From: Bryoerythrophyllum caledonicum
Lineage: Eukaryota; Streptophyta; Bryopsida; Pottiales; Pottiaceae
NCBI GenBank assembly: GCA_963971425.1
Contig: OZ020520.1
Coordinates: 5,994,553-6,058,552 of the forward strand
DNA length: 64,000 bases
Direction: 5' to 3'
A model generated the notes under the pieces. It searched no databases. It was not told where the DNA came from and saw nothing but the letters and a program-made list of their open reading frames with translations. A program made the position numbers and the translations under genes. Positions 1,141 through 57,060 of the stretch are shown in pieces (the stretch's first letter is position 1; every line of letters starts with the position of its first letter).

Positions 1141-2759
<1,619 letters not shown>

Positions 2760-2883
2760 GTCTCTCTACTTGATCTGCAAGAGCAGAACTCCACGAAGAA
2801 AATCCACCAGTACGAAACTCTTCAGAGGTTAGTACACTACTTCATCTGCAAGAGCAGGGCTCTCAAAGACAGATATAAATATA

Positions 2884-3901: not shown

Positions 3902-6002
<2,101 letters not shown>

Positions 6003-6452
6003 TGCAAGAGCTCCAAAACCCCTCGTCTGCACTCCACACTCCACTAAAAACCGCTGCGAATGGCTCAATCGAAAGCTAAGCAGGAACGCTACAAATTGCG
6101 AGAAATAGAGCGCGTGTAAAGTGCGTGAAGTGGGAGAGAAGAGCGTCACAAGTTGTGATCACAAGAATGAGGATAGTGTGATCACTCGATTTTCGCAACG
6201 GCTCTTTAGCTTTCGAATGCTCATGCGCGGGCCGAAGACTGGCAACCGGGGTTCCCGGTCATAATTACGACGAGAAAGATGTGCTTTCGTAGATGATGAA
6301 CTGATATCTAGGAATTTACTTGAATTCTTTCTGAACAACTTGTAGATGAGAGGGTTTTCAAGGACTGCCCTGCACTGTCCGCTGTGACGAGAGTCTATGT
6401 TTCGGTTGAGATATCTAGAAGAAGCGAAGATGTAGTCTCACGAATTTGGTGG

Positions 6453-19100: not shown

Positions 19101-19819
19101 GCATTCTAAACAAATCAGGATTCAATGTCACACATAAAAAACATTCCTTTACCTTGCCACAGGCGCTTGAGAAATCGCTCCTTGGTTGCCTCGTCCTGCT
19201 CAACAAAGTTGTAACACGGATCCAAGTTCGTAGCCAGGGCCCGCAAATCCGCCTGGAAGGCCCCCACTAACGCACCGTAAGGCTCACCTTTCTCATCAAC
19301 TCTGATGGGCTTTTTCTCCAGGATCTTCTCGCGACCCACCGAGGCGTGCCTGTTGCTATGGCGAGGCGGTGTTGTGTCCTGAAATATGTCCTCGTCTTCC
19401 ACCTCCTCATCCTCTGGATCTTGTTCCTCCTCTTCGTCGTCTTCGTCTTCATACCCTCTACTGTACAAAAGAAACCCTTGCCTATTTAATTGTTAAAAGC
19501 CCCAAGCACATCCATTGTAGGGCGTCACGGACGTCCACAACGACATCTGCACGTCATGTGTAACATTACTGTGTCCTCACTGACGTCCTTGCCTGTGTCA
19601 GCGTTACAAAAGAATAATATACAAGATCCTCACAGTTCCACTACTCTTATCCACGAGTCTTCAAAATAGAAATTCATACAGAGGCCTCAGACTTTACATT
19701 GATTTCCACTACGTACTCGGAATTGAAGATTAAAATTTACTTCATACAAAGCGTACAAAGTGGAATACAACACACAACATAAAAGGCAATAAATAACGGA
19801 CGAAGCTATTTTGCGTGCC

Positions 19820-19861
19820 GTGAGCGGTGAGCGGAGAGCGGTGAGCGGTGAGCGGTGAGCC
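19820..19861. repeat. Left terminal 7-bp tandem array of the MULE
   Basis: Six head-to-tail 7-mers, GTGAGCG with one GAGAGCG and a final GTGAGCC, starting 22 bases inside the element. It mirrors the right array, making part of the terminal inverted repeat. Likely a binding platform for an element-encoded protein (inference). Confidence 0.9.
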
Positions 19862-21309
19862 TAGAGTAAAATAGTGGGGCATTTTTTGGAAAAAGTTATT
19901 GATAAAGTTGGAATTAATGTAAATGAGAAAGTGAAAATTAAAGCAAAAGGTGACGGTAGAGGGCCTATAGCCATGGATTCCTAGTCTTATATGATTTATT
20001 TGTTTGTATACCAAAGTACCTAGGGAGGTACTTTTTAAGAAGGGGGTGGTGAATGAAATTGGTGAGGGTTGTAGAAACCCTATGACCGTGGATTTCCAAA
20101 ACTCTCTTCAATAAGTGATGTTGCATAAATATCCCTATTATTCAGCATCATGTTTATATGAAACCATTTTGTGTGTTGATTTTTACATTTTATCAGCATT
20201 CATAGAAAATGCAATGCCAGTTACGTTGCATGATCGTACATAATAGAAATAAATAGTATATTTTAAATTTCAGAATACCCGTAGAAAACATGGAATGTTT
20301 TAGGATACAAATTATAATGATTAAAGATACCTCATATATATAGTGGAAAATGTGGACTTGGGAGAATAGAGTGCTTGTGTAGGAAGAGATGATAGGAAGG
20401 ATTTTTGTATATTAAATTACTGGTCAAAGTAGGAGCTAGGTAGACAGTTTTGCAGTGGCATATTATATGTAAAGTAAACTTCATTCCAGAGCATTGTTGA
20501 ATTTTTACATTGCTCAACTTGTTGGTACATGATAAACTTAGTAAATTTAAATGGCCTACAATGAAAGTCTTCATGAATCGACAAATTTTTTAATCTGAGG
20601 AACAAATTTAAATCTCGCAATCTGAAAGACGACACGGTTCAATCAAAATTCCAGACATTAATCTTATTGAATATGAATGAAACCAAACAAAGCAAAAGGC
20701 ATGCAACTCATAGTACTTTAGTGATTCTCATTGGTTATTCATTGTATTCCTTGCTATTGCATGAGTTTTAGAACTATGAATCAGGTTAATATACTCCATG
20801 GGTGCTTACGCTTGAGCAAGCGTATATATGAACTTCAAATTTCACAACGACACTCTTCATGGAAGATACAACAAGTTGGGTAATTGAAGGCAAAAATTTC
20901 ACAATGTAAATATGTTGTTAAATTTGTACTTGTCTTTAACGTTCCAAGAGTTCAAGATATGGAGATCACCAAATGAAGGAAGATTAAAGCAAATAATGTA
21001 ATAGGATGAAGATATATTGGGCTATAGCACTAAAGAAATAGCCAAGAAGTGTAGCATGAAATTTGGTTGTGAGGATGACAAAAAGAAATATATATTTTGC
21101 AAGCCACATTATGTTAGCAGCCAATGAAACAATCGTGCACTGAATTACAGAAAGGCGGGAATTCAATAATTGACCAAATAGAAGTTTGAATTGAGACTGC
21201 TAATATGGAAACAAAATATGGAAATTCTAAAGGATAAGGATCGTTTACAAACAGATCATAACATAAACGCCAAAGAAAAAGGAGAGTCCACAGAAGATAA
21301 AAAGTGTGC
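19862..21309. other. Left flank of the MULE, 3' of the methyltransferase-like gene
   Basis: AT-rich non-coding sequence between the terminal array and the stop codon of the minus-strand gene. It should include that gene's 3' UTR and polyadenylation signals. No further gene is supported. Confidence 0.5.
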
Positions 21310-24300
21310 TCACGCAGATGCAGACGAACTAGAGGCCGAGGAGGAGGATAGGACATGTCTTTCGACGTCTGCTTCTACATCTAGAAAATGGAGCACATGG
21401 GAATCATATCGCCGATTGTGGGTATGGATTTGAGGAGACGAGGTAGTCGCCATTAAGTCTGCGACATGGGCGGCCCAAGGTGGCAGCAGAAAATCTTTGG
21501 TTGGGGAAGCCGCCCTGGCAATCAGACTGCAGAGTCCATAGAAAAATTAGGTTATCAAATCAAGGAATTCTTCACAGAGAATGGCAGAGAATTTCAAATT
21601 TAACAACTTTGAACTTACGTACTCAGTCTATTTCTTTTCACAATCTTGCGGATAGGAATGTCTTCGTCTAAGAGAGTTGCCATTGGAGGCGCCTCGCTTG
21701 GGATGGTCGAATCGACTGATGGCGATGATAGGGCCTTCAACTTCTCGTTGAAGACAACGGTGTCGCTTTCCAAAGCAACAATATGACGGCCGGACATCTG
21801 GCATGCGCGCACAGAATTTCCTGCAAAGGAATAACAAAATTAGTTATGACTACAATTATGTACATTGCTTAAGAAATGAAGAAGACTCACCGATAGAGGC
21901 AAACGCATCTAGAACAACCGCTTGAGGCTGTGATAAAGCCTCGATCAACATCTGGAGGAAGGTAGCGTCCTTCTCACGTGGCCCCCTCCATGGAATGGAT
22001 CCTCGCATGGACTGTGATTCGGCAGAGGTGAAATTGAAAAGAACATCGGATTCTTCCACGCCCATTCCCATCTCACAGAGGGCGTCGTTTTTATTGAACT
22101 TGAAGTTGGCAACATCCACATTCTGTCGAACAAGGAACAAAACACGGAACCTACGCGACTGCGATTGCAATGCACGTCGAATCCAATAGAGACAGTTAGA
22201 ATGAGATATACAATAAAATCAACAAATAAAACATCTGAAATGTAAGAAGGAGGATCGGTTAAGCGCACCTTCAGCGAAGCATCAATGTGCGAGGTGAATG
22301 GGAGGTCGTTTATTGCCCACCAATCTCTGAGGATTTTGAAACCGTATCCGCCCGCATAAGACAACACATCGGACCGGATAGAGGGGACCTCGGGCAAGAA
22401 GATTAGCATCCCGCCCTTGTCATGGAGGAAGAAATCTGAAAACTCAAATAAGCTCTCCACGACCGGAATCGAATACTCGTTCCAGGTTGGAATGTCATTT
22501 GTATGCTTCGAGATGGATGGAACCGGCATCCCGTCAGGGATGTCTGCCAAGATCAAGTCGAATCCACTGTGAGGGCAGTGAGCTGAACGACCTGAACTGC
22601 AAGCTTTCTTCCTCGCCTGGACAAGCACAAGTCAGTAATAGTGTTTTGAAACAATGGCATTGGATGTTTTGTTACAATGAAGAGGATAATTTATAGTTCT
22701 AGTTGTAAAACAATCCTATTCTTTTGGGACAACAACAATCAATAAGTACAGGAAAAGAAATAGACATATCTTGAAATTGAGATGTAAAAAACAAGCTTAA
22801 GTACCTGGAGGCCAAACTTATTCATGGCAAGAAAAGAAATAGACATATCTTGAAATTGAGATGTAAAAAACTAGCTTAAGTACCTGGAGGACAAACTTAT
22901 TCATGGCAAGAAGCGTGGAATGCTGGTCAGGGAAAGAATCCATGATCATAGAGATTGATGTGTTGTCTACAAAGACACTCGCTGGTGGAGGTGGCGAGGT
23001 TCTCCCAGCCTTCACCGTCATGATAAGCATGTTAGAGTTCTGTGAAAGGGGACTTGAAGCGTTCGATGCTTCGGGTGCTGATCGCTTTGATCTCCTCTGA
23101 GACTGCAAGGGCGCCACTAAGGACTCTGAATCCAACATCTCAATGTCATCAATACGAGCGGTGGAGGCCAAAGTGATCAGCTGAGCATGTTGTGAGGCTA
23201 GTTCCGCCTTCGCGGCGGCAAGTGCTTTGGCCACTTCCACTGCTGTAGCCTCCAATTCAGCCTTCGCGGCAGCCTCTGACTCTGCTTTTGCTTTAGCAGC
23301 AACTTCAGCATCAGCGGTAGCCTTTCTCTTGGAGACACGGGTCTTCTTCGCACCAAGTTCTGTAGAAACAGAAGGAAGTATTGTTTCCGTACCCAATAGA
23401 TCTGGCTGGACACTGTTCCGTAATTCGATATCAAATGAAGGAGGCCTCTTAACGGGACAATCCAAATACCAACCACAACGCTCCCAATGCTCACGCCCCC
23501 ATGTCTTCATGATATCGTCAGTGAACATGAACATATCACTAGTCTTCTCCAAGTAATTGGAGAAGGATGGTGGAGTACGAGAAATTGCCTTCCTCGGGAA
23601 TAGAATGTACATGAAGTACCTGTAGAGAGTCCGGTTGATGGCTTGCTTAAGTCCTACTTGCTTCTCGGGTGGATTATTCTTATGAACTCCCTTCCCCTTA
23701 AACTCGTTATGGAAGGCAATATCCCAGAGCTGCACGCGCATCTGTTCAACATATTCGGGTATTGTTTGGATAGGCATACCATGCTCAGGAAAGTAGTCAA
23801 TATTAACCTCCATGTCAGATAATATCCCTTGGAACAATGATTCAGTCTCCCCTGAAAGCTGCAATTACCATTCAAACAATAGTAAGAAATAGAAGCACAA
23901 TGAAATAACACTATCAAAGAATGGTAATTCAGCTTGTACCTGAGCCCACCATGTGGCCTTGTGAAGCCATTCTGGAAAGTCATGGTCTGGGAACTTAGAC
24001 TTTGGAAAGCGAACTTGTTCACGAAGGGAAGATGGCTTGTTCCACCTTTCCAACCATTTCACTTTCATGCTTGGGACCATAGCGGAGGTGGCGAGGTAGT
24101 AGAGCTTCTCCTGAGACATCTCAGGATCATCTTCGCGGTCCTCATAGTGGATTCGAACTTGTTGAAGAAACTCGGAAGTGTGCTTGGGGTCAGCAATTGG
24201 CAATTGCTTCTTGAGCTCAGATGTTAGTTGAACCTTCACTTTCTCAATTGCGGCTGAAACAAAGTCATGAAACTTGGCGGAAGTCCAAAGAGAGTCATCT

Positions 24301-26721
24301 GGAAACTTCTCCTTGAACTTTCGATTAGCATGAGCAGCTGCCTCCCCCAACTCTTGCTACAAAACCAAGCAAGGTGTCGCGTCAACAACACTGAACATTC
24401 TGATCAACACACCAACAATTGAAGTAGGGGAAAGCATCCACTATAACATTGATGAAAAATGCAAGTATACTGAGTAGATGTTATAGAAGAGCAAGAATAC
24501 CTGATAAAGAATTGCGATTAGAGACTTGAATGTCAAGGTATACCATGTTCTGTCCTTGGACTTCTGCTTTGCCTCGGCAGCTGAAATTTCATCCTTGCTC
24601 ACCAAGGACTCAAAATACTGTAGTGGCTGCCCGGCAATGCCCTGAATACGATATAATTTGTGGACAAGGTTCATGGTGACGTGAGATTTTTGGTTCCTCC
24701 TGCAAGCTCAAATTCATAAGTTAGAATTTAATTTCACCAACTAACTGAAAGCAAATGGTAATCATACCAGTTAACTTGGTGAAGAGCTGTTAGTAGAGGA
24801 GCCACTTGACCCTCCACATTGAGGATAATAGATTCCACCGCATAATGCCACTTAGCATCGTTGGAATGGTCTCGATTGATTATTGGCATCCATGCTTGTA
24901 ATCTGTGGTTCCCATCCCAAACATGGAACATTCTTCCAGAAAACTGCTTTAAATCCTCATCCATCTCCAATTCAGTCTCAAATTGTTCATTTGCTTGAGT
25001 CCACAATGGACTCCAAGAATCTGAAATGGCTTGGGTGACAGTTACCGTCTTGCCCTCGTTGTCCTCCATAGCCACGTAGAATACACCGTGGCCATCCATA
25101 TATCCCGTGCTCACAAAATGCGCACCCAAACCCATCACATCATTCTTCAAAGAAGGTCGAACTACCGGTAATGAAATCATTCTGCATAGAGGAATATTCA
25201 ACTTTGATTTGTGCCTTGGTTTAAATCGGAGCCTTTCCAACACAAGGTTAGTATTCACAGATTCTTTGATGACCAGTTCATCCATCTCCTTTCCAAGCTC
25301 GTCGGCGGACATAAGCTTCGAATTCTCATCTGGGTCCTCCAAATCAAGGTCTGCCGTCTCTATCAACGGCTGGACTTCTGCAATATCATGGAAAACCACA
25401 TGAGATTTGGAAATCAAAATGAAACAAAACAAAAGTAAGTCCAATCACATTACCAATACCTTCGTTCTCCTGATCATGTTGGGTGGACTCTAGCATCTCA
25501 TTGAAAGAAGAATCTGAAAACATCACCACGGAAAGAAGGGTGGTGAATATCTAAATGGTGTGCTAATGGTTCACTGAAACTGGAAAAAAAAATCAACATC
25601 CTGTAGGAGGTACAGCTGTGGGCACCTCCCTTGCGGGTCGCAACTTTGGGGCGGGGCTGTCGACATTGACAAAGCCTTCCCCGAGGGGGTGCCGCTGTCG
25701 GCACCCCCTCGGGGAAGGCTTTGTCAATGTCGACAGCCCCGCCCCCCCGACGTGCAGCTGCCGCCTTCTCTCCTACGGGGTGCCGACCGTGATCCAAAGT
25801 CGCGACCCGCAAGGGGGTGCCGACAGCGGCACCCCCTCGAAGGTGGCGCCGCAGATATCGATAGAGAAAATAACGAATAAACTCAAGGATTACGAAGAAG
25901 AGGAGGAAATACATGAGATGCTTACCCTCCATGTCGAGTCTTCGATGATCGCAACTTCCCTCAATCTCGAGGCTGTGGGTGTCGCTCTTTCGATCAGATT
26001 GAAGCCCGTTGTCCTCGGCTGCGACGACTTGCGTCCAAGCCTCACGTTAGATTTAGATTTTGTGAACTCATCAAGCAAGCATGTGAGTGCAATCAGTTGC
26101 GCACTATCGTGAAACCCTACACTGAATGAAATCGTTCCTCCTCTCTTCTTCACTGCGAATGCCTCGAAACCCTTAGCAAATAGAAATGGTTCTTCCTGTC
26201 TACCTCATATCGGCAGCAATAAAACCCTATTTTCTCAAAATGGCAGGTAAGGGCGGGTAAGGGCGGGAACTCACGACGGGATTGGACGGGAACAAGACTT
26301 GGCCATATGTAACAAAAGACTATTGACTTAACGGCTTTAGGGTCTTTTCAGCCTTTGACATCTTGGACCTCGCACAAAATGCTAAAATCACAAAGACAAA
26401 CATAACTTGGACTTGAATTAACTCACATTGATCGCAATCCATGGCCGACCTCGGGGGGGTGCAAATTCCTTTGCCGTTGAATTGCAAATCGAAATTGGGT
26501 TGTTTATCCTCCGTAACGTGCTCTGCAATTCTCTGAAGCTCCGGACCACTCCGACAACTCATAACTGGACTCAAGTCAGATGCATCCTCAAAATTTAAAA
26601 CCCTTGCGGTCTCGCCTGAATCTATCTCCCTCGGCATCGACTTCTTCTCTCTCATTTGCCTACTCCGTTTTAGCGTCTTTGCATCACTAAAGTACAGAGC
26701 TTTTCTCTTTTGCCTCTTCAT
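21310..26721 (-). CDS. MULE cargo protein: ParB-like domain plus class-beta amino-methyltransferase-like domain
   Basis: Eleven exons, all joins in phase: 26721–26427, 26018–25926, 25513–25460, 25377–24768, 24699–24501, 24356–23940, 23858–22884, 22616–22269, 22158–21891, 21820–21619 and 21526–21310. They give about 1225 aa. At about residues 209–310, IPLCRMISLPVVRPSL..VSTGYMDGHGVFYVA..FHVWDGNHRLQAW resembles a ParB/sulfiredoxin fold (IPL start, GxHR-like DGNHR). An Ala/Lys/Glu-rich coiled coil sits in exon 7. The C terminus has amino-MTase motifs in class-beta order: motif IV-like FDLILADIPDGMP (about 900–912), then motif I VLDAFASIGG (about 1079–1088) and GRHIVALESD. The catalytic (D/N/S)PP(Y/F/W) is replaced by DIPD, so activity is doubtful. 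A ParB fold fused to an N4/N6-MTase is known from phage and bacterial proteins. The exon 3 donor could also be six bases further on (in frame). Exon-2 acceptor (GCAG at 26019–26022) is chosen by phase. Confidence 0.8.
22752..22909. repeat. 79-bp tandem duplication over a splice donor
   Basis: Two adjacent 79-bp copies (22752–22830 and 22831–22909) differing at only about two positions. The upstream copy, in the sense of the minus gene, contains the end of exon 7 (…LLAMNKFVLQ) and its GTACTTAAGC donor. The second copy repeats the exon end and donor inside the intron, giving a decoy donor. Confidence 0.92.
25629..25839. repeat. GC-rich nested palindrome in intron 2 of the MULE cargo gene
   Basis: An inner hairpin at 25650–25743 has near-perfect arms of about 45 bp around CTGT, with core GGGTGCCGCTGTCGGCACCC. 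Outer arms at 25629–25649 and 25794–25814 also pair. A further copy of the core, reversed, is at 25813–25838. It stands out from the AT-rich intron. It may be a small foldback element or a structured RNA segment. Confidence 0.85.
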
Positions 26722-27351
26722 AATTTTTGAATTATGATTCTACTTGCATTCAACTCCTCTTTCACCACCACCTTTTAGCGGCCATTCTTGCAAGGTTTCA
26801 ACGTAGTTAATTCAGCAAGTCTGCTCATTTTTATTCAAATTTTTCTAAATTATTGTAAATATCCCACCAATTCTGTGTTCAGATCGTGGAAGTGACTCGA
26901 ATTCTTTGTTATTTTCAATTTCTTATAATTTTATGTGGCGGCCGTTTCAATCTAAACATATCCCTCTCCAGGAAAAACCGTACGAAGGCGGCTCTGAGAT
27001 TAGATCAGCTAATTCAGAGTCATGTTAGTGCTGGCCAAATTCTTTGCCAGATCAAGATTGCTTTCATTAGAATATTATATACAGGATCTGAGAAGCGGAG
27101 CTTATCAATATTAATAGCGCAACATTATTGCAATTTGACGGGCCTTTCCATGTCTCCCTAGCATCATCCATCGTGGATACACGTATGCCCACTGTCCTTT
27201 AATAACCTTATGGTTGCTATAGTTACTCTCAGGGGCTTAAAGTATATATACTCCTATATATCTCCCTTGAATCAACTCTTTCAATGTCGTCTTTGTTAGA
27301 ATTCAATTCACTTTGTCTTTGATAGAATTCAATTCAATTGTCCTCTAAATT
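26722..27351. promoter_or_regulatory. Divergent promoter region of the MULE genes
   Basis: A 630-bp gap separates the two start codons, which point away from each other, so one region must drive both. It is AT-rich and has TATATATA-like stretches near 27240–27260, about 100 bp upstream of the transposase ATG. No individual element is proven. Confidence 0.6.
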
Positions 27352-30300
27352 ATGGCTGACCTTGAAGATGAACTGAGCAGTAGTGTCTTGCTTCGAGGAG
27401 ATGGTCCTGGAGTCCCTGTTTCATTTGTAGTAGATGAAACTGGCTTTGCTTCTGTGAGTGGAAGTCGTCTTGCATTGAGGTTCAAGATCTCTGAGGAAAC
27501 GGTTCATGTTGACCGAGAAGTGTTTGATGCAGTCACGGGTGAACTTACTCATTCAATTGCTCAGATTAGTAGTGGCCGTGGTGAGGACGAGATTTGGTCG
27601 CTGAAGGCAGGGAAATACCGAGTTTATGGCAAGTTCGATAGCATCCATGGAACACCCTTACCTGCGTTTACACCGCGTCTGTCATCTAGTGCTAGTGAGG
27701 TCACACCACTGCTTTCAAAGGTCAAATTAGAGCCAGTTAATGACAATGTTTTTGTTTTGAGTGACGACTCTGATTGCGAGTGCCTTCCATTGAATCCTGG
27801 CATTACTTCGTTTCAATCCTCATCTCTTTCTTCCAATCCTCGTCCATCGTCCTCTTGCTTTGTTCCCGATCCTAGATCTAAACCCCCTCTTGCACCATCT
27901 GCCTCGTCTCCACTAAGCATAGTGGACTGCCTCCGAAATTTGAGTTCCCGGCGTAGATCAAAGTCAGTCCTTAGTAGAATAGATTTCAATTCCATCACCA
28001 TAGAGAAAGTCGACTTTTTGCCTCCCACTTTTGATGGAGACATCGTGTTTGAACTACCTCCTCTTGGAAACACTCTTCCTTCTTCCAAGGCAGGCCACCT
28101 CCACGGTATGGATAAGAAACATGATGGTCATGCTTGGACTCGTACCGTCACTTCTCACATCAAGTCTGATCAGCAGCTCACGTTCCGGATGTCTTCATGC
28201 TTGGGACACCTAAGGTGCACTAATAGTCTCTGCGACTATCTCAAACGTCCCAATCGAACATCTCCTTCTAATGAGACAGAGTGGGAGGGTACCGCCTCCT
28301 CTTCATTTCTCCCTGGCTGTGAGCCACCTTTCAATTCTTCTGTTCTTTGTGCCATTTGTCTGCTTCCCCCGACATGCATAGACAGTTGTATGGCTAAAGT
28401 CTATTATGTTGTTGGAGAGAGTCATATGTCACGTGCATGTGTGCATTTGGGATATCATCGTCATGTGGTGAAGAGAGGTAATTGCAGAGAGTCAAACGCA
28501 AAACTTAGGGCCTTGATTGGGGAACAAGTTGAACGGACTCCCAGTGCGACAAACTCCTCCATCATCTTGGAAGCAAGTAAGGATTACCTTGGAGAACTGC
28601 TCCTCTGCCCTGACGGTGTTCCGCACAAGACCTTGGGATTAGATGAACTTGTCCCTGTCTTGAACAAGGTGAAGCAGATGACCTCCCCTAGTCTCCGCAA
28701 TGAAGTCACAACATTCCGTTACTTGCGTCGATTTGGAGTCATGGACAGTATAACAAAATTGAGAGGCTCTAGCAATTGGGCTTTTGTCCAAGAGAACCGT
28801 TTTCCGGGACAAGGTGCAGACGCAGACAAGGTCTTTATATTTAAGATGGCAGAGATTGGACCAGGGAGTGGTGTTGATTTAGTACGCCGAATGCAGCCTG
28901 GCGGTGATTTGCAAGACTCTTGGATGATGTTCGATCATGTGAAGCGCGTCAAAGGATGGACTACAATGGCTTCCCATGTGTATGATTCCACGTATTGCCG
29001 TGTTATGACCATTGCTATTTGTGACATGCAATCCGAGGATGTCGCTGCGCAACGAGTATTCTGGAACAATTTGAATGCAGTGGCGGGTAGGCATGATATG
29101 CCAAATGTGAATTTCAAAGGCTTCATGGCCGACAGCGCACAGGCAAATTGGAATGCTATACGTATTACTTACGGAAGTGGAGACGCGAATATCCGAATGG
29201 ACAACCGGGAAAGGACCTGCCTCTTTCATTGGACGCAATCATTGGAAAAACATACAAAGGCAGACATTAGGGCAGACTTGCAAGACCAACACAAGCGACT
29301 TTGCAAACAATATAAGAATTCCACATCCATGGAGGAGGCACAGACTAAATACCTCGCCATTCGATCATGGTGGTTATCTTCTGGAGCAACGACGGATGAT
29401 GGCCTCGTCCGACTCGACTTATGGCTTGCCTTTTGGCATTTCCGCTATCGACAGTGGGGAGGCTTCATGGATCATGTAAGCTACCCATACTTCACTTTTA
29501 TTTTCTCTGACGTGACCATCTACCAATTTTTTTTTCATTTGTTGAATATTGTCGAAGTCCTTTTTTTCTTCCTGCTAGATGGAGGTGCCGCCTTCGGCAC
29601 CCCCCTAAGTCTCGGAAATTAATAAATCACATTTTACTCGTCAAATGTCACAATAGCGGCACCCTCCCTGGATGCTGTACCTCTGAAATCTTTGCTCTAC
29701 TTCAGAGTGGGTGCCGCTGTCGGCACCCCCTTGGAGTCGTCGACTGTTGTATTCAGAGTTCCACACGAAAAGAGGTGTTGTTGTCGGCCCCTCCTTCTGA
29801 GTCGAGCAATGATTACTTCCGCCAACCACCCCTAAATGGGAGCCGATAGCGCCATCCCTCTTTGCTAAGGATATTCACAACTCTATTTTGATTAGTTTTT
29901 TTTTATAGTGCCAAATTGACATATTGACGTAGAATTGTTTATGTCTTCCAGGCTTTATCCGAGTCGGAATTAGCTGAGATGCCTTCATGTAATCTAGCGG
30001 AAACCGTTCACAACAAGTGGTTGCAGCAGTCAGGCAAGAGAGGCAACGACTTATATGTGGCAACCGTAGATGACATGGTTCGTGCCTTCATGCAAGTTGT
30101 GGCCTATTATGGATTTCTGAAGGGTGAGAAGGCTGGAACTGGCCCAGGAAAAGAAGAACTTCGACTTCGTGCCGCCCAACGAACTGCGCAACAGTCTGGT
30201 AATTCAAAAGTACTTCACGAAGCGTTTTCCAACATGCCTGGGGCCGACGAATTTTGCATCCGTGACCCTCATCTTGAAGGTGAAGAAGTCTTTCTCTCAA

Positions 30301-31403
30301 TGAAAAGAAAGGCTGATCTACCGCCGGGTTCTGAATTTGACTCTCACCGACCCGACAAGATCAGTATCTCACGCCCTCGTGTGAAGACTGGACGGATAAA
30401 TCCAGAAATAAGTGTCCTTCCAATCGAGGTTGACGTCCAATATCCGGGTCAAGAACATGATGCAGCTCGAGCCCCTGATTCCCCGACTCCGCCATCCTCC
30501 TTACGAGTACAACACACCAAGAATGTTATGGAATCAGATTGCGACGAGAGACAATGGCACATTGCTAGACTTCCGAAAACCTCTGCAAAAGCGTGTTTTG
30601 CTCAACAGGCCATCACAAAGAAGAAATGTGTTGCCAAGATCGTACAAGGCGGGAGAAGTACCGTTGCCCCGACTTACACAGGTATGATGGACAGCTACAA
30701 GAAGAATAGGCATGAGAAGATGCAGTTCTTCTTTTGCAATGACGACATCGAGCGTTGTGTCAAAGGCAGTCGAAGGAAGTGGGTTTTGTCCAAACCTGAA
30801 ATCCCAGATGTATGGCCCGTTAAGATGGGCACGAATCTTGTGAGTAAGGAAATATTAGCACTTGAAAACGCTGGGTTCCGCCTGGCCGAGCGCCTACAAT
30901 TGTCTCCAAGGAAGCTTTTTAGTGACATTGCCGCGCCCGTGGACTTGGAGGAATATCCTCCGCCCGTAAACCCATTAGAGCATCCCACAAGGAGGTATGG
31001 AAAGAATATCCGCAGAAATCCGCAGGCACCGACTACAAAACATCATAACAGTTGCGCCTCTGCACTCTCCGTGGTTGGCAAAATTCGCAAGATCCTTATG
31101 GTGCCGCGACCAGCTCTAGGGTGCATTGTGAATTTGGAGTCCACAAGCATTTCCAAGGTCTCCACATATTTGGTGGTGATTGGTCAGTTTCCGAGTTGTA
31201 GTTGTCCATCTTTCAAGGAGATGTCTGACAAGTCGCTTGGCAAACGCGCGCAATGGACATACTGTAAGCACCTCTACTTCATCCTGAATATTGTCTGTGG
31301 ATTAGATCCTGAGGTTGATGTATTTATGCATGCTCCTAGTTTCAGCTGGAATGAGACCAAACAAGTTATTCAACTTTTGATTCTCAAACAGTATAGTGCG
31401 TAG
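27352..31403 (+). CDS. MULE-type transposase (GCM/WRKY-like zinc region, DDE, SWIM finger)
   Basis: Two exons, 27352–29475 and 29952–31403, joined at phase 0, give 1191 aa. Residues from about 283 have a Cys/His pattern CLGHLRC..LC..(spacer)..CAIC..CVHLGYHRH, resembling the WRKY–GCM1-type zinc domains that precede MULE transposase cores. The putative DDE triad is D558 (TIAICDM), D594 (GFMADSAQANW) and E725 (NLAETVHNKW), with a C..H element between (CLFHWTQSLEKH, about 623). A SWIM zinc finger, C1124-x-C1126-x19-C1146-x-H1148, lies near the C terminus, as in MuDR-type transposases. The intron (29476–29951) contains GGTGCC/GGCACC hairpins like those in the partner gene. No stop or frameshift, so a functional enzyme is possible. 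The catalytic assignments come from spacing and context only. Confidence 0.85.
29580..29870. repeat. GGTGCC/GGCACC hairpins in the transposase intron
   Basis: Several short palindromes of the type GGTGCCGCTGTCGGCACCCC (about 29709–29729) and GGTGCCGCCTTCGGCACC (about 29583–29601), plus degraded copies near 29655, 29775 and 29838. The core matches the palindrome in the intron of the partner gene at 25.65–25.84 kb. Confidence 0.75.
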
Positions 31404-31950
31404 TTATCCGTATGGGCATTTCAACACTGTGTTACATTTCTTTTATATTATTCAAAAACGGTGAGACTACAAGGGCCACCGGATGTGTTTCTAAATTGAC
31501 AATTGTTTAGATAGGGCGCAACCTCATGTATATACAATCAAATGCACGACACCTTCCATTTGAGATATGAACAAGTATTTAAATATCTGGAATCCAAAAC
31601 TACATGGAGAAGTCCAGGAACTATAAGGACATTATCTAAGATGTCAAATGCTTTGTATTCAAATAATAAACCTTCGTTACATTATTTCACAATGAAATAC
31701 TTCAAGTTATTTGTAAGTTCACAATTTACTTGTCTAAGGTCCTACACTTCCTGTATTGCCAAGTTGAATGAATCCATACGTTCATGGAATCACACCCTCG
31801 TATACGGTATGTTTTTCCCAAAAAATTAAGCGGCCTCTTTCCACGGCTTTAGGTCACACATATTTTACTAATTTTAGATATTATATTCTACAATTATTCC
31901 TAAACTTTTTATTTTCCAAAAAAATCTCACAACAAATTTTTATTTTTCAG
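31404..31950. other. Right flank of the MULE, 3' of the transposase gene
   Basis: AT-rich sequence between the transposase stop and the right terminal array. It presumably holds the transposase 3' UTR. No further gene is seen. Confidence 0.5.
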
Positions 31951-31992
31951 CTCTCGGCTCACGGCTCACGGCTCACCGCTCACCGCTCACCG
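31951..31992. repeat. Right terminal 7-bp tandem array of the MULE
   Basis: Six 7-mers of the form CTCACCG/CTCACGG/CTCTCGG, the reverse orientation of the left array (GTGAGCG). It ends 26 bases before the element boundary. Together with the left array and the shared GCTATTTTGCGTGCC end it defines the terminal inverted repeat. Confidence 0.9.
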
Positions 31993-32654
31993 CTCTAGGC
32001 ACGCAAAATAGCAATCCCCAATAAATAACTCCAAACATTACCGACTTTGCATTTTAAAATATTGAAATTACAAACAAGGTAAGCAACAACGACCCTTAAA
32101 CCGACTGCTTTAACTATGTCATACGTTGTAAGACATCGCCGTGACTACTAGGACGTTTGCAGAGACGTCTGCATGTCCTCCACCGTGTCGCCGGGGACGT
32201 CAGAAAACAAACTTCTACTTGTCAGTAAGGACTTCGGAATCAATGAATTTAAGTTCCATTGTGCAATAAAAAGCGAGAAACTCACCGGAAGTCGCGCTGC
32301 ATCACCAGCTCTTTCATCCGTAGTGTGGCCTTTTCATTCGCTGTCAAAGCCGCTCGTGTGTCCTAGGCCCTGCCTTTCCCTTTAGAGCTACCACGCACAT
32401 CAAACTTCTGCTTTGTTCGCCCCTCAAGAACTTCCTGTGGAGCTCCATCATCCCCATCACTTGACGGACTGTCCACTTGCGTTGGAGGCGACCGGTTGCG
32501 CTTCTTCATTTTCCCGTGCAATTTTGGCATCCTGACCCGACGAGGTGGCCACTTCACGAAGGCTTCCCCCTCCTTCTGCAGCAACCATCGCACACCAACA
32601 GCAGAACAAGTCAACGACCGAGAGAAGAACACACAAATTGAATACAACATCCTA

Positions 32655-44280: not shown

Positions 44281-44329
44281 CTCTCCGCTCTCTGCTCACC
44301 GCTCACCGCTTACATACGAGCTTTTCCCC
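44281..44329. mobile_element. Right terminus of a second, related MULE
   Basis: Four 7-mers CTCTCCG, CTCTCTG, CTCACCG, CTCACCG (44281–44308) followed by 21 bases ending GAGCTTTTCCCC. This matches the layout of the intact MULE's right end (7-mer array, then about 26 bases ending in CCC). Coding sequence of tnp2 resumes immediately afterwards. I could not find the matching left end or target duplication. Confidence 0.6.
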
Positions 44330-56182: not shown

Positions 56183-57060
56183 TAATATGGCCAATGGCTT
56201 TGCAAGAGCACTGAAAGCCTTCACAAACCTTTTATAATAGTTACACATCCCCCAAAATTCATGTAGCCTACTCACATCTCGTGGACCAGGAATAGACATC
56301 ACGATTCACCACTTCCACTTTGATAGCTACCACACCCAATCTACTTGGATAAATCATGTGGCCTAAATACTCAATATGATCAAAGTAGAATTTGCACTTA
56401 CCAGGGTGCAACTTCAAACCGTGGAGCTTTAATCTAGCAAACACCTCCATCAAGTGTAGTCTATGTTGCCTTCGATTTTTGCCAAAGACAATAATATCAT
56501 CAATGTAACATCTCACAAAGTCCAAGCCCAAGAGAAACCAGTCCATAACCCTCTGGAATTCTACTGGTACATTCTTCAACCCAAATGGCAAGAACTTCCA
56601 CTGAAACAATCGATCCTTCCCATCCTTATCAATGCCTCAAAATATAGTCTTTTCCTTGTCCTCATCTCTCACTCCTATTTGGTAGTATCCAGAGCGCAAA
56701 TCCAATGTATTAAATACCTTGGCATGACCAATGGCCTCAAAATTCTCCTCCAAAGTTGGCATGGCATCACAATCTGACTTAGTGAATCTAATAATCCTCC
56801 TATAATCACCGCTCATCCTCTTTTCAGTCTAATTACCATAGATGTCCTTCTTGGATGGCATAACCGTTGCCAATGCATACTCACAATCTAGTGGAGCTAA
56901 CTCCACTAGCTTTGCAGTCACCAATTCCTCTATAGGAGCGTGAATCATTCTTCGTTCAACGTCGCTATACTTATATGGCTTCTGATAAATTGATGCTTCA
57001 TCTATCAAGTTAATACATACCTCCTGCCCCTTCAACACTTCCATAACGTGCAAACTAAAC
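56183..57060 (-). pseudogene. Ty3/gypsy reverse transcriptase (5' half of the split element)
   Basis: Minus-strand RT: ERRMIHAPIEELVTAKLVEL at about 56.97 kb, FQWKFLPFGLKNVPVEFQRV and the catalytic YIDD box (VRCYIDDIIVFG) near 56.5 kb, LHPGKCKFYFDHIEYLGHMI, then the RNase H junction YYKRFVKAFSALAKPLA just before the CACTA. The frame continues at 14037. Frame changes and spacing loss show it is dead. Order on the minus strand (gag, protease, methyltransferase, RT, RNase H, integrase) fits a gypsy element. Confidence 0.88.

Follow-up and report, generated by a model that had tools for sequence, protein, structure and literature searches.

In the VANDAL Mutator-like elements (MULEs) of Arabidopsis, a second gene, VANC, accompanies the transposase gene VANA, which is the more conserved of the two, and VANC induces methylation loss in transposable elements (PMC5735166). 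The VANC21 motifs form dynamic tandem repeats and are found upstream of VANA21 as well as within introns of VANC21 and VANB21 (PMC5735166). Accessory proteins that combine ParB with an N4-cytosine/N6-adenine (N4C/N6A) methyltransferase (MTase) have been reported in transposons of brown, green and red algae (PMC12477816); this class of transposon protein is already known. Here we describe a MULE-like element of 12,221 bp in the bryophyte Bryoerythrophyllum caledonicum, whose second gene, hereafter the partner gene, encodes a predicted ParB/sulfiredoxin-fold domain and an MTase-fold domain in a single protein. The element lies in a 64,000-nt window (contig OZ020520.1 of assembly GCA_963971425.1, positions 5,994,553-6,058,552, forward strand), and all coordinates below are those of the window.

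Sola1-1_Ec32 of Ectocarpus is alike in that one long protein (1,104 amino acids, against 1,228 here) with a ParB-like part and an N4C/N6A-type MTase is encoded on the strand opposite the transposase, but that protein sits in a 21.5-kb Sola1 element, whereas the carrier here is MULE-like and makes 11-bp target duplications (PMC12477816). Set against the published descriptions of the algal transposon proteins, the features that appear particular to the present family are its high copy number, the degenerate form of motif IV and the palindromes in its introns. VANDAL elements resemble it in having a second gene next to a better-conserved transposase, and target motifs (here candidate ones) clustered in introns and other non-coding parts, in tandem repeats that differ between related copies; VANC, however, carries DUF1985 and DUF287 (PMC5735166), in place of which the partner here has ParB and the MTase fold. 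Neither DUF1985 nor DUF287 was matched by the whole partner protein (Pfam, E up to 1, which returned PF01555 only). MuDR, with mudrB, and MULEs with other second open reading frames (ORFs) are likewise two-gene elements. Table 1 of a MULE survey gives FAR1, SET, PMD, the ovarian tumour gene, MutB, DUF and unknown ORFs among other motifs, and within that table there is neither a ParB or amino-MTase partner nor a bryophyte host (PMC6446971). Phage and bacterial ParB-methylases (Bce_0392 and a phage 'DNA methylase') also hold a ParB fold and an amino-MTase in one protein, but scans of viral and prokaryote contigs with the ParB alignment gave no sequence relative. An initial annotation of the window, made from the sequence alone, had described this domain pair as one of phage and bacteria and not a standard plant gene, which misses the algal transposon proteins (PMC12477816). 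In the open-licence literature, which misses most subscription papers, we found no MULE-borne or bryophyte case of a ParB-MTase protein; nor did the literature searched contain a MULE-like carrier with 11-bp duplications, pairing and selection throughout a family, the degenerate motif IV or the intronic palindromes.

The element extends from 19798 to 32018, and we are nearly certain that it is a conserved, autonomous-looking MULE-like transposon with two genes, a transposase (+ strand) and the ParB and MTase-fold partner (- strand), which diverge from its middle. It is flanked by identical 11-bp target duplications (CAATAAATAAC; 19787-19797 and 32019-32029), and its left end is common to copies L009-L011, L013, L014 and L016. 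The internally deleted copy L012 has a perfect 11-bp direct repeat of its own (CATCGTTCGCA), so the duplication was present in both copies whose two ends were compared (the window element and L012). The terminal inverted repeats (19798-19866 and 31950-32018) contain arms of 62 nt each with 90% identity (19805-19866 and 31951-32012) and include tandem arrays of the 7-bp unit GTGAGCG (19820-19860 on the left, 31950-31995 on the right), which are inverted to each other and vary in repeat number among relatives. Three further matches to the heptad array were seen at 44286-44313, adjoining ORFs that by eye resemble CACTA/En-Spm, and are possibly the end fragment of a related element.

The transposase is encoded by two exons (27352-29475, 708 amino acids, with a DDE-like region at approximately residues 440-705, and 29952-31403), which splice to a protein of 1,191 amino acids. 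Its D..T, D.A and C..HW motifs, read by eye, we take to fit a MULE. Near the C-terminus, exon 2 has a weak match to a SWIM-type zinc finger (E 0.48 on the whole exon; E 0.039 on a piece, 14.0 bits against a cut-off of 19.6; neither reaches the cut-off). No match of this transposase to the Pfam MULE profile PF10551 was seen at E up to 1, or at E up to 10 on pieces of it, which does not imply another fold, and the transposase was not among the PF10551 places in its own genome (best 150 of 384 candidates). Transposases that do match PF10551 occur elsewhere in the same genome. A search of PDB with a piece of the transposase gave two matches only, at E ~1, and a search of phages gave none. We write 'MULE-like' because the profile misses this transposase. 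The placement among MULEs, as the initial annotation had it, is thus a probable one that rests on the inverted repeats, the weak SWIM match and the 11-bp duplications, MULE target duplications being 8-11 bp (PMC6446971).

Genome searches scored the best candidates only, and the figures given here are of matches listed, from which no genome-wide copy number is claimed. A kilobase probe from the element found 14 copies in the 437-Mb genome that were ~100% identical and others at 98 to 75% (best 40 of 92 candidates), in keeping with the young element first proposed. The young copies L009-L011, compared over the whole partner gene, were 99.6-99.9% identical to the window in aligned blocks and kept all splice sites; the frame is open in L009 and L010 and is interrupted by one premature stop in L011. 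A 79-bp tandem duplication spanning the exon 7/intron 7 junction (22752-22912) is found in the youngest copies, L012, L014 and L019, but is single copy in L013, L015-L018 and L022, and it therefore arose within the family.

The two genes are paired across the genome. A search with the ParB exon listed places all at least 66% identical, 112 of 150 without an internal stop (best 150 of 1,782 candidates), and a second query, taken from the 66% family of L045, raised the number of distinct places to 266 (best 150 of 1,771 candidates). Places found with the DDE-like region of the transposase were all at least 80% identical, 94 of the 144 without stops (best 144 of 2,535 candidates). A listed ParB exon lies no more than 10 kb away from at least 109 of these 144 places, and in 108 of these pairs the two are head-to-head; because the searches list best candidates only, 109 pairs is a lower bound. 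Shuffled positions gave a mean of 1.7 pairs and a maximum of 8 (200 trials; only the 13 large contigs were used, two of which, C9 and C12, entered with assumed lengths). Similarity ranks for transposase and partner are correlated (Spearman 0.79 for 83 pairs; 0.62 for the 68 pairs left when the youngest were removed). The transposase piece is more conserved than the ParB piece in the elements of L028 (92 vs 82%), L044 (84 vs 69%) and L045 (83 vs 66%). The gene is thus present in other copies of the same element, and 'cargo', the term first applied to it, understates its standing: it is an enduring second gene in a large lineage of transposons, not a recent acquisition.

The partner gene (21310-26721, - strand) consists of 11 exons joined in phase by GT-AG splicing, and encodes 1,228 amino acids. 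The exons lie at 26721-26427, 26027-25926, 25513-25460, 25377-24768, 24699-24501, 24356-23940, 23858-22884, 22616-22269, 22158-21891, 21820-21619 and 21526-21310, with the stop codon ending at 21310. Conservation of exon blocks in divergent copies supports this model. L023, L026, L027 and L028 align with every one of exons 4-11, wholly or in part, and the last two with part of exon 1 as well; L024 aligns over exons 6-11, and L025 over part of exon 6 plus exons 7-11, with exon identities mostly of 77-88%. The gaps between aligned blocks take in most of the sequence of introns 1-7, one block includes the three short introns 8-10, and support for the short exons 2 and 3 comes from close copies. 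The ParB and MTase parts are still in one collinear gene in L044 and L045 (69% and 66% identical in exon 4). We also considered L046 as an intronless retrocopy and rejected this; it is a copy in which a deletion in the intron between exons 8 and 9 leaves a single open frame through both.

A search of 5.8 billion proteins with the full-length partner protein found no relative, probably reflecting a comparison of length-matched candidates with single-exon metagenome ORFs. With alignments of single exons, the same protein set gave 239 matches for exon 4 (best 120 listed) and 12 for exon 8, and relatives of the protein are present in metagenomes and in Ceratodon. A match of residues 355-717 to MRP-S31 (E 0.0028) was treated as chance.

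Comparison of the partner gene with its copies, decayed ones included, indicates purifying selection on the protein. By the Nei-Gojobori method, the ratio of nonsynonymous to synonymous substitution rates (dN/dS) against L028 was 0.137 (synonymous rate, dS, 0.97; 1,167 codons), while the same alignment read in the two wrong frames gave 1.57 and 1.77. Ratios against other copies were 0.186 (L026), 0.216 (L024), 0.267 (L023), 0.289 (L027) and 0.301 (L025), and 0.24-0.46 against the remainder, L009-L011 having too few changes to be included. By region, the values against L028 were 0.226 for the N-terminus, 0.043 for ParB (dS saturated), 0.063 for exon 6, 0.078 for the first half of exon 7, 0.187 for the linker, 0.179 for the MTase part and 0.366 for the C-terminus, with exon 5 undefined. 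These low ratios show that the ParB and MTase domains have both been constrained between element lineages. Together with the perfect target duplication, an intact gene under selection was central to the initial annotation; these points hold, as do the extent, phase and exon number it gave, with a protein slightly longer than its approximately 1225 amino acids.

Exon 4 (24768-25377, - strand) encodes the predicted ParB/sulfiredoxin-fold domain, approximately residues 200-354, which contains the sequence IPLCRM...VWDGNHRLQAW. An AlphaFold2 model of this region from an alignment of 85 sequences reached a predicted local distance difference test score (pLDDT) of 91 and a predicted template modelling score of 0.82; an input of five sequences reached only pLDDT 44 and was dropped. 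Fold searches with the model (Foldseek, VIA) returned ParB, sulfiredoxin and SerK, the top PDB matches being ParB and sulfiredoxin, and the model thus supports the ParB/sulfiredoxin likeness read from the sequence at the outset. In a viral fold search, a 'DNA methylase' of Mycobacterium phage Vincenzo ranked fourth (E 6.7e-3). The G-x-x-R nucleotide-site motif is present as GNHR, the G being invariant and N, H and R each at least 90% conserved among the 85 aligned members. The Pfam ParB family gave no match for the window domain. Among the 85 members, the commonest weak Pfam matches, to DUF5531 (14 members) and MC2 (5 members), with a best E of 0.0029, were to unrelated families, and two members match DndB (best E 0.0059). 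A match to Sat3 in the ParB part (E 0.0092) was treated as chance.

The C-terminal part has, by sequence comparison, a beta-class amino-methyltransferase fold with a degenerate motif IV. The motif IV region is in exon 8 (22269-22616), where DLILADIPDG stands in place of the expected D-P-P-Y. Motif I begins in exon 9 (21891-22158; VVLDAFASIG), and its remainder, with the next strand, is in exon 10 (21619-21820; NSVRAC...GRHIVALESD). Pfam N6_N4_Mtase (PF01555) matched over exons 9-10 (E 6.5e-4, 20.2 bits, below the cut-off of 26.7). The motif I region also matched phrog_6952 (E 1.1e-7) and an NCBIfam DNA methyltransferase (E 3.1e-6, 27 bits, below the cut-off of 244). In PDB, each of the six matches with E up to 5 was a methyltransferase (DpnA-like, RsrI, CcrM and 8urk; best E 0.028). 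In a sub-threshold segment, DLIVADPPYGLG of 8urk, which is labelled methyltransferase only, aligned with DLILADIPDGM, placing motif IV before motif I, the beta-class order. Fold and order are therefore as the initial annotation proposed; motif IV itself is not of the canonical catalytic form. None of 15 aligned members (the window, L044, L045 and 12 proteins from the exon-8 search) has [DNS]PP[YFW]. The variants seen are D-I-P-D-G, D-L-K-D-G, D-V-K-T-G, D-F-P-D-G, D-V-P-E-N and similar, and one member (P0131) is without the D as well, while the flanking positions are nearly invariant across the 15. Motif I (VLDAFASxGNS) is retained in most divergent copies examined. The domain is probably cofactor-binding and non-catalytic.

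Four palindromes with the form GGTGCCG-N4-CGGCACC were found when the whole window was scanned allowing up to two mismatches. All four are inside the element, against 0.05 expected. Two lie in intron 2 of the partner gene (25688-25705 and 25816-25833) and two in the transposase intron (29584-29601 and 29710-29727). The first is contained in a perfect foldback of 47-nt arms and a 4-nt loop (25648-25745), which is partly deleted in L009. The core GTGCCG-N4-CGGCAC was found in 28 of 46 loci, among which L001-L008 do not span these introns, and all 28 mapped sites were outside coding blocks (13 loci, with many sites common to close copies and the 3.5-kb loci L029-L043 excluded). L028 has six exact palindromes between exons 1 and 4. 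L045 has three sites in intron 5, GTGTGCCG-N4-CGGCACAC twice and GAGTGCCG-N4-CGGCACTC once, in which the arms are altered symmetrically relative to the core. Across the 437-Mb genome, the 20-mer form of the palindrome occurred at 76 sites and its reversed control at none. Of 50 sites listed, 41 were within 5 kb of a family match, as counted with 23 ParB, 19 transposase and 104 MTase places drawn from longer lists: 36 are in close copies, and the other five, spread over four places, are near MTase exons that share no more than 53-55% identity (best 150 of 3,180 candidates).

Elsewhere in the window, 2124-2765 (- strand) is presumably an exon of an SMP30/strictosidine-synthase-like gene, 5757-6158 (- strand) what we take to be a plant-type CDKB-like kinase exon, and 56268-56636 (- strand) an apparent gypsy-type reverse transcriptase fragment, all by eye.

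As in VANDAL21, a conserved transposase is accompanied by a faster second gene, and motifs of variable number occur in the introns of both genes. By analogy with that pattern, we infer sequence-specific binding and protection: the partner would bind element DNA and oppose silencing in the manner of VANC. We favour this mechanism only tentatively, at somewhat less than even chances. The ParB part would bind non-coding DNA of the element itself, with the intronic palindromes as the most likely sites, and perhaps load and spread over it; the MTase fold would act as a non-catalytic scaffold binding DNA or S-adenosylmethionine (AdoMet); and such binding would counter silencing, leaving the element expressed and mobile. 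Bacterial ParB loads at parS and spreads from it. A narrower form of the proposal, in which a nucleotide-gated ParB domain loads at the palindromes, spreads and shields the element as in parABS, with a catalytically dead MTase fold as reader or anchor, is in our judgement doubtful. The initial annotation had likewise raised the countering of silencing as by VANC proteins; it is the best of its suggestions and is strengthened by the intronic palindromes, with the mechanism itself still tentative.

Several observations weigh against the favoured mechanism and the pairing behind it. The structural matches to ParB are distant ones (TM-score 0.31-0.40 when normalised by model length; E 0.014 at best), and a separate DNA-binding helix-turn-helix was not identified in the partner protein. 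Among the matches listed, no ParB exon lies within 10 kb of 35 of the 144 transposase places, and no transposase within that distance of 157 of the 266 ParB exons; as the lists hold the best candidates only, these gaps may or may not be real. Nine of the 50 genome sites, checked by eye against the ParB and transposase lists, are near no listed family match, and may still belong to the family because those lists are incomplete. The exact core was not found in L019-L026, L044 and L046. L026 has three sites with one or two changes and L021 one with two, and in L019, L020, L024, L025, L044 and L046 the introns concerned are not covered or are lost, but in L022 and L023 the intron sequence is present and has no site even allowing two changes. 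The palindromes also occupy different introns in different families, and the main alternative for them is a GC-rich hairpin of which they might form parts and which would have spread within these introns.

Alternatively, the partner might be a transposition factor that acts with the transposase on the subterminal GTGAGCG arrays and is needed for excision or integration, as mudrB of MuDR, an explanation we regard as unlikely. TnpA of En/Spm is a comparable transposition factor. The pairing with a transposase and the heptad arrays of variable number at both element ends fit this role, and mudrB is apparently required for integration (PMC6446971), but the palindromes enriched in the element are in its introns, not at its ends. 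Still less probable, we think, is that the partner is catalytically active as an N6-adenine or N4-cytosine methyltransferase, directed by ParB to element DNA and marking it, as has been proposed for the Ectocarpus protein (PMC12477816). Retention of the cofactor motif I, the dN/dS of 0.18 in the MTase part (against L028) and the similarity to DpnA-like, RsrI and CcrM enzymes are in line with activity, but motif IV is without its aromatic residue and PP pair in 15 of 15 members with nearly invariant flanks. We rank methylation lower because of this degenerate motif, and its absence in catalytic form makes DNA marking, the other role suggested in the initial annotation, unlikely. It is improbable that the ParB domain is a nuclease or nucleoside triphosphate-dependent nickase acting in replication or resolution of the element, as in Bce_0392 of Bacillus cereus; a ParB-methylase with nicking activity has been described (PMC5512222) and the superfamily fold is the same, but the conserved GNHR suits nucleotide binding equally. 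Finally, while host-DNA capture is frequent in MULEs (PMC6446971), a host fragment captured once and carried as a passenger is very hard to reconcile with head-to-head pairing in families to ~66% identity, dN/dS well below 1, and relatives in metagenomes and Ceratodon.

What keeps some transposons active in the face of host silencing remains an open question, and VANC is one plant example, already studied, of a countermeasure that a transposon encodes. Here, a large group of transposons carries a bacterial-type ParB domain in an established second gene that is under selection. Every member examined has lost the catalytic motif, which, for this lineage at least, argues against the published idea of chemical self-marking. 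Now that there are candidate binding sites, binding of the palindromes and its effect on methylation and expression can be tested directly. If the parABS-like version were true, VANC-type anti-silencing would have been invented twice, by unrelated proteins, and both times with sites placed in introns.

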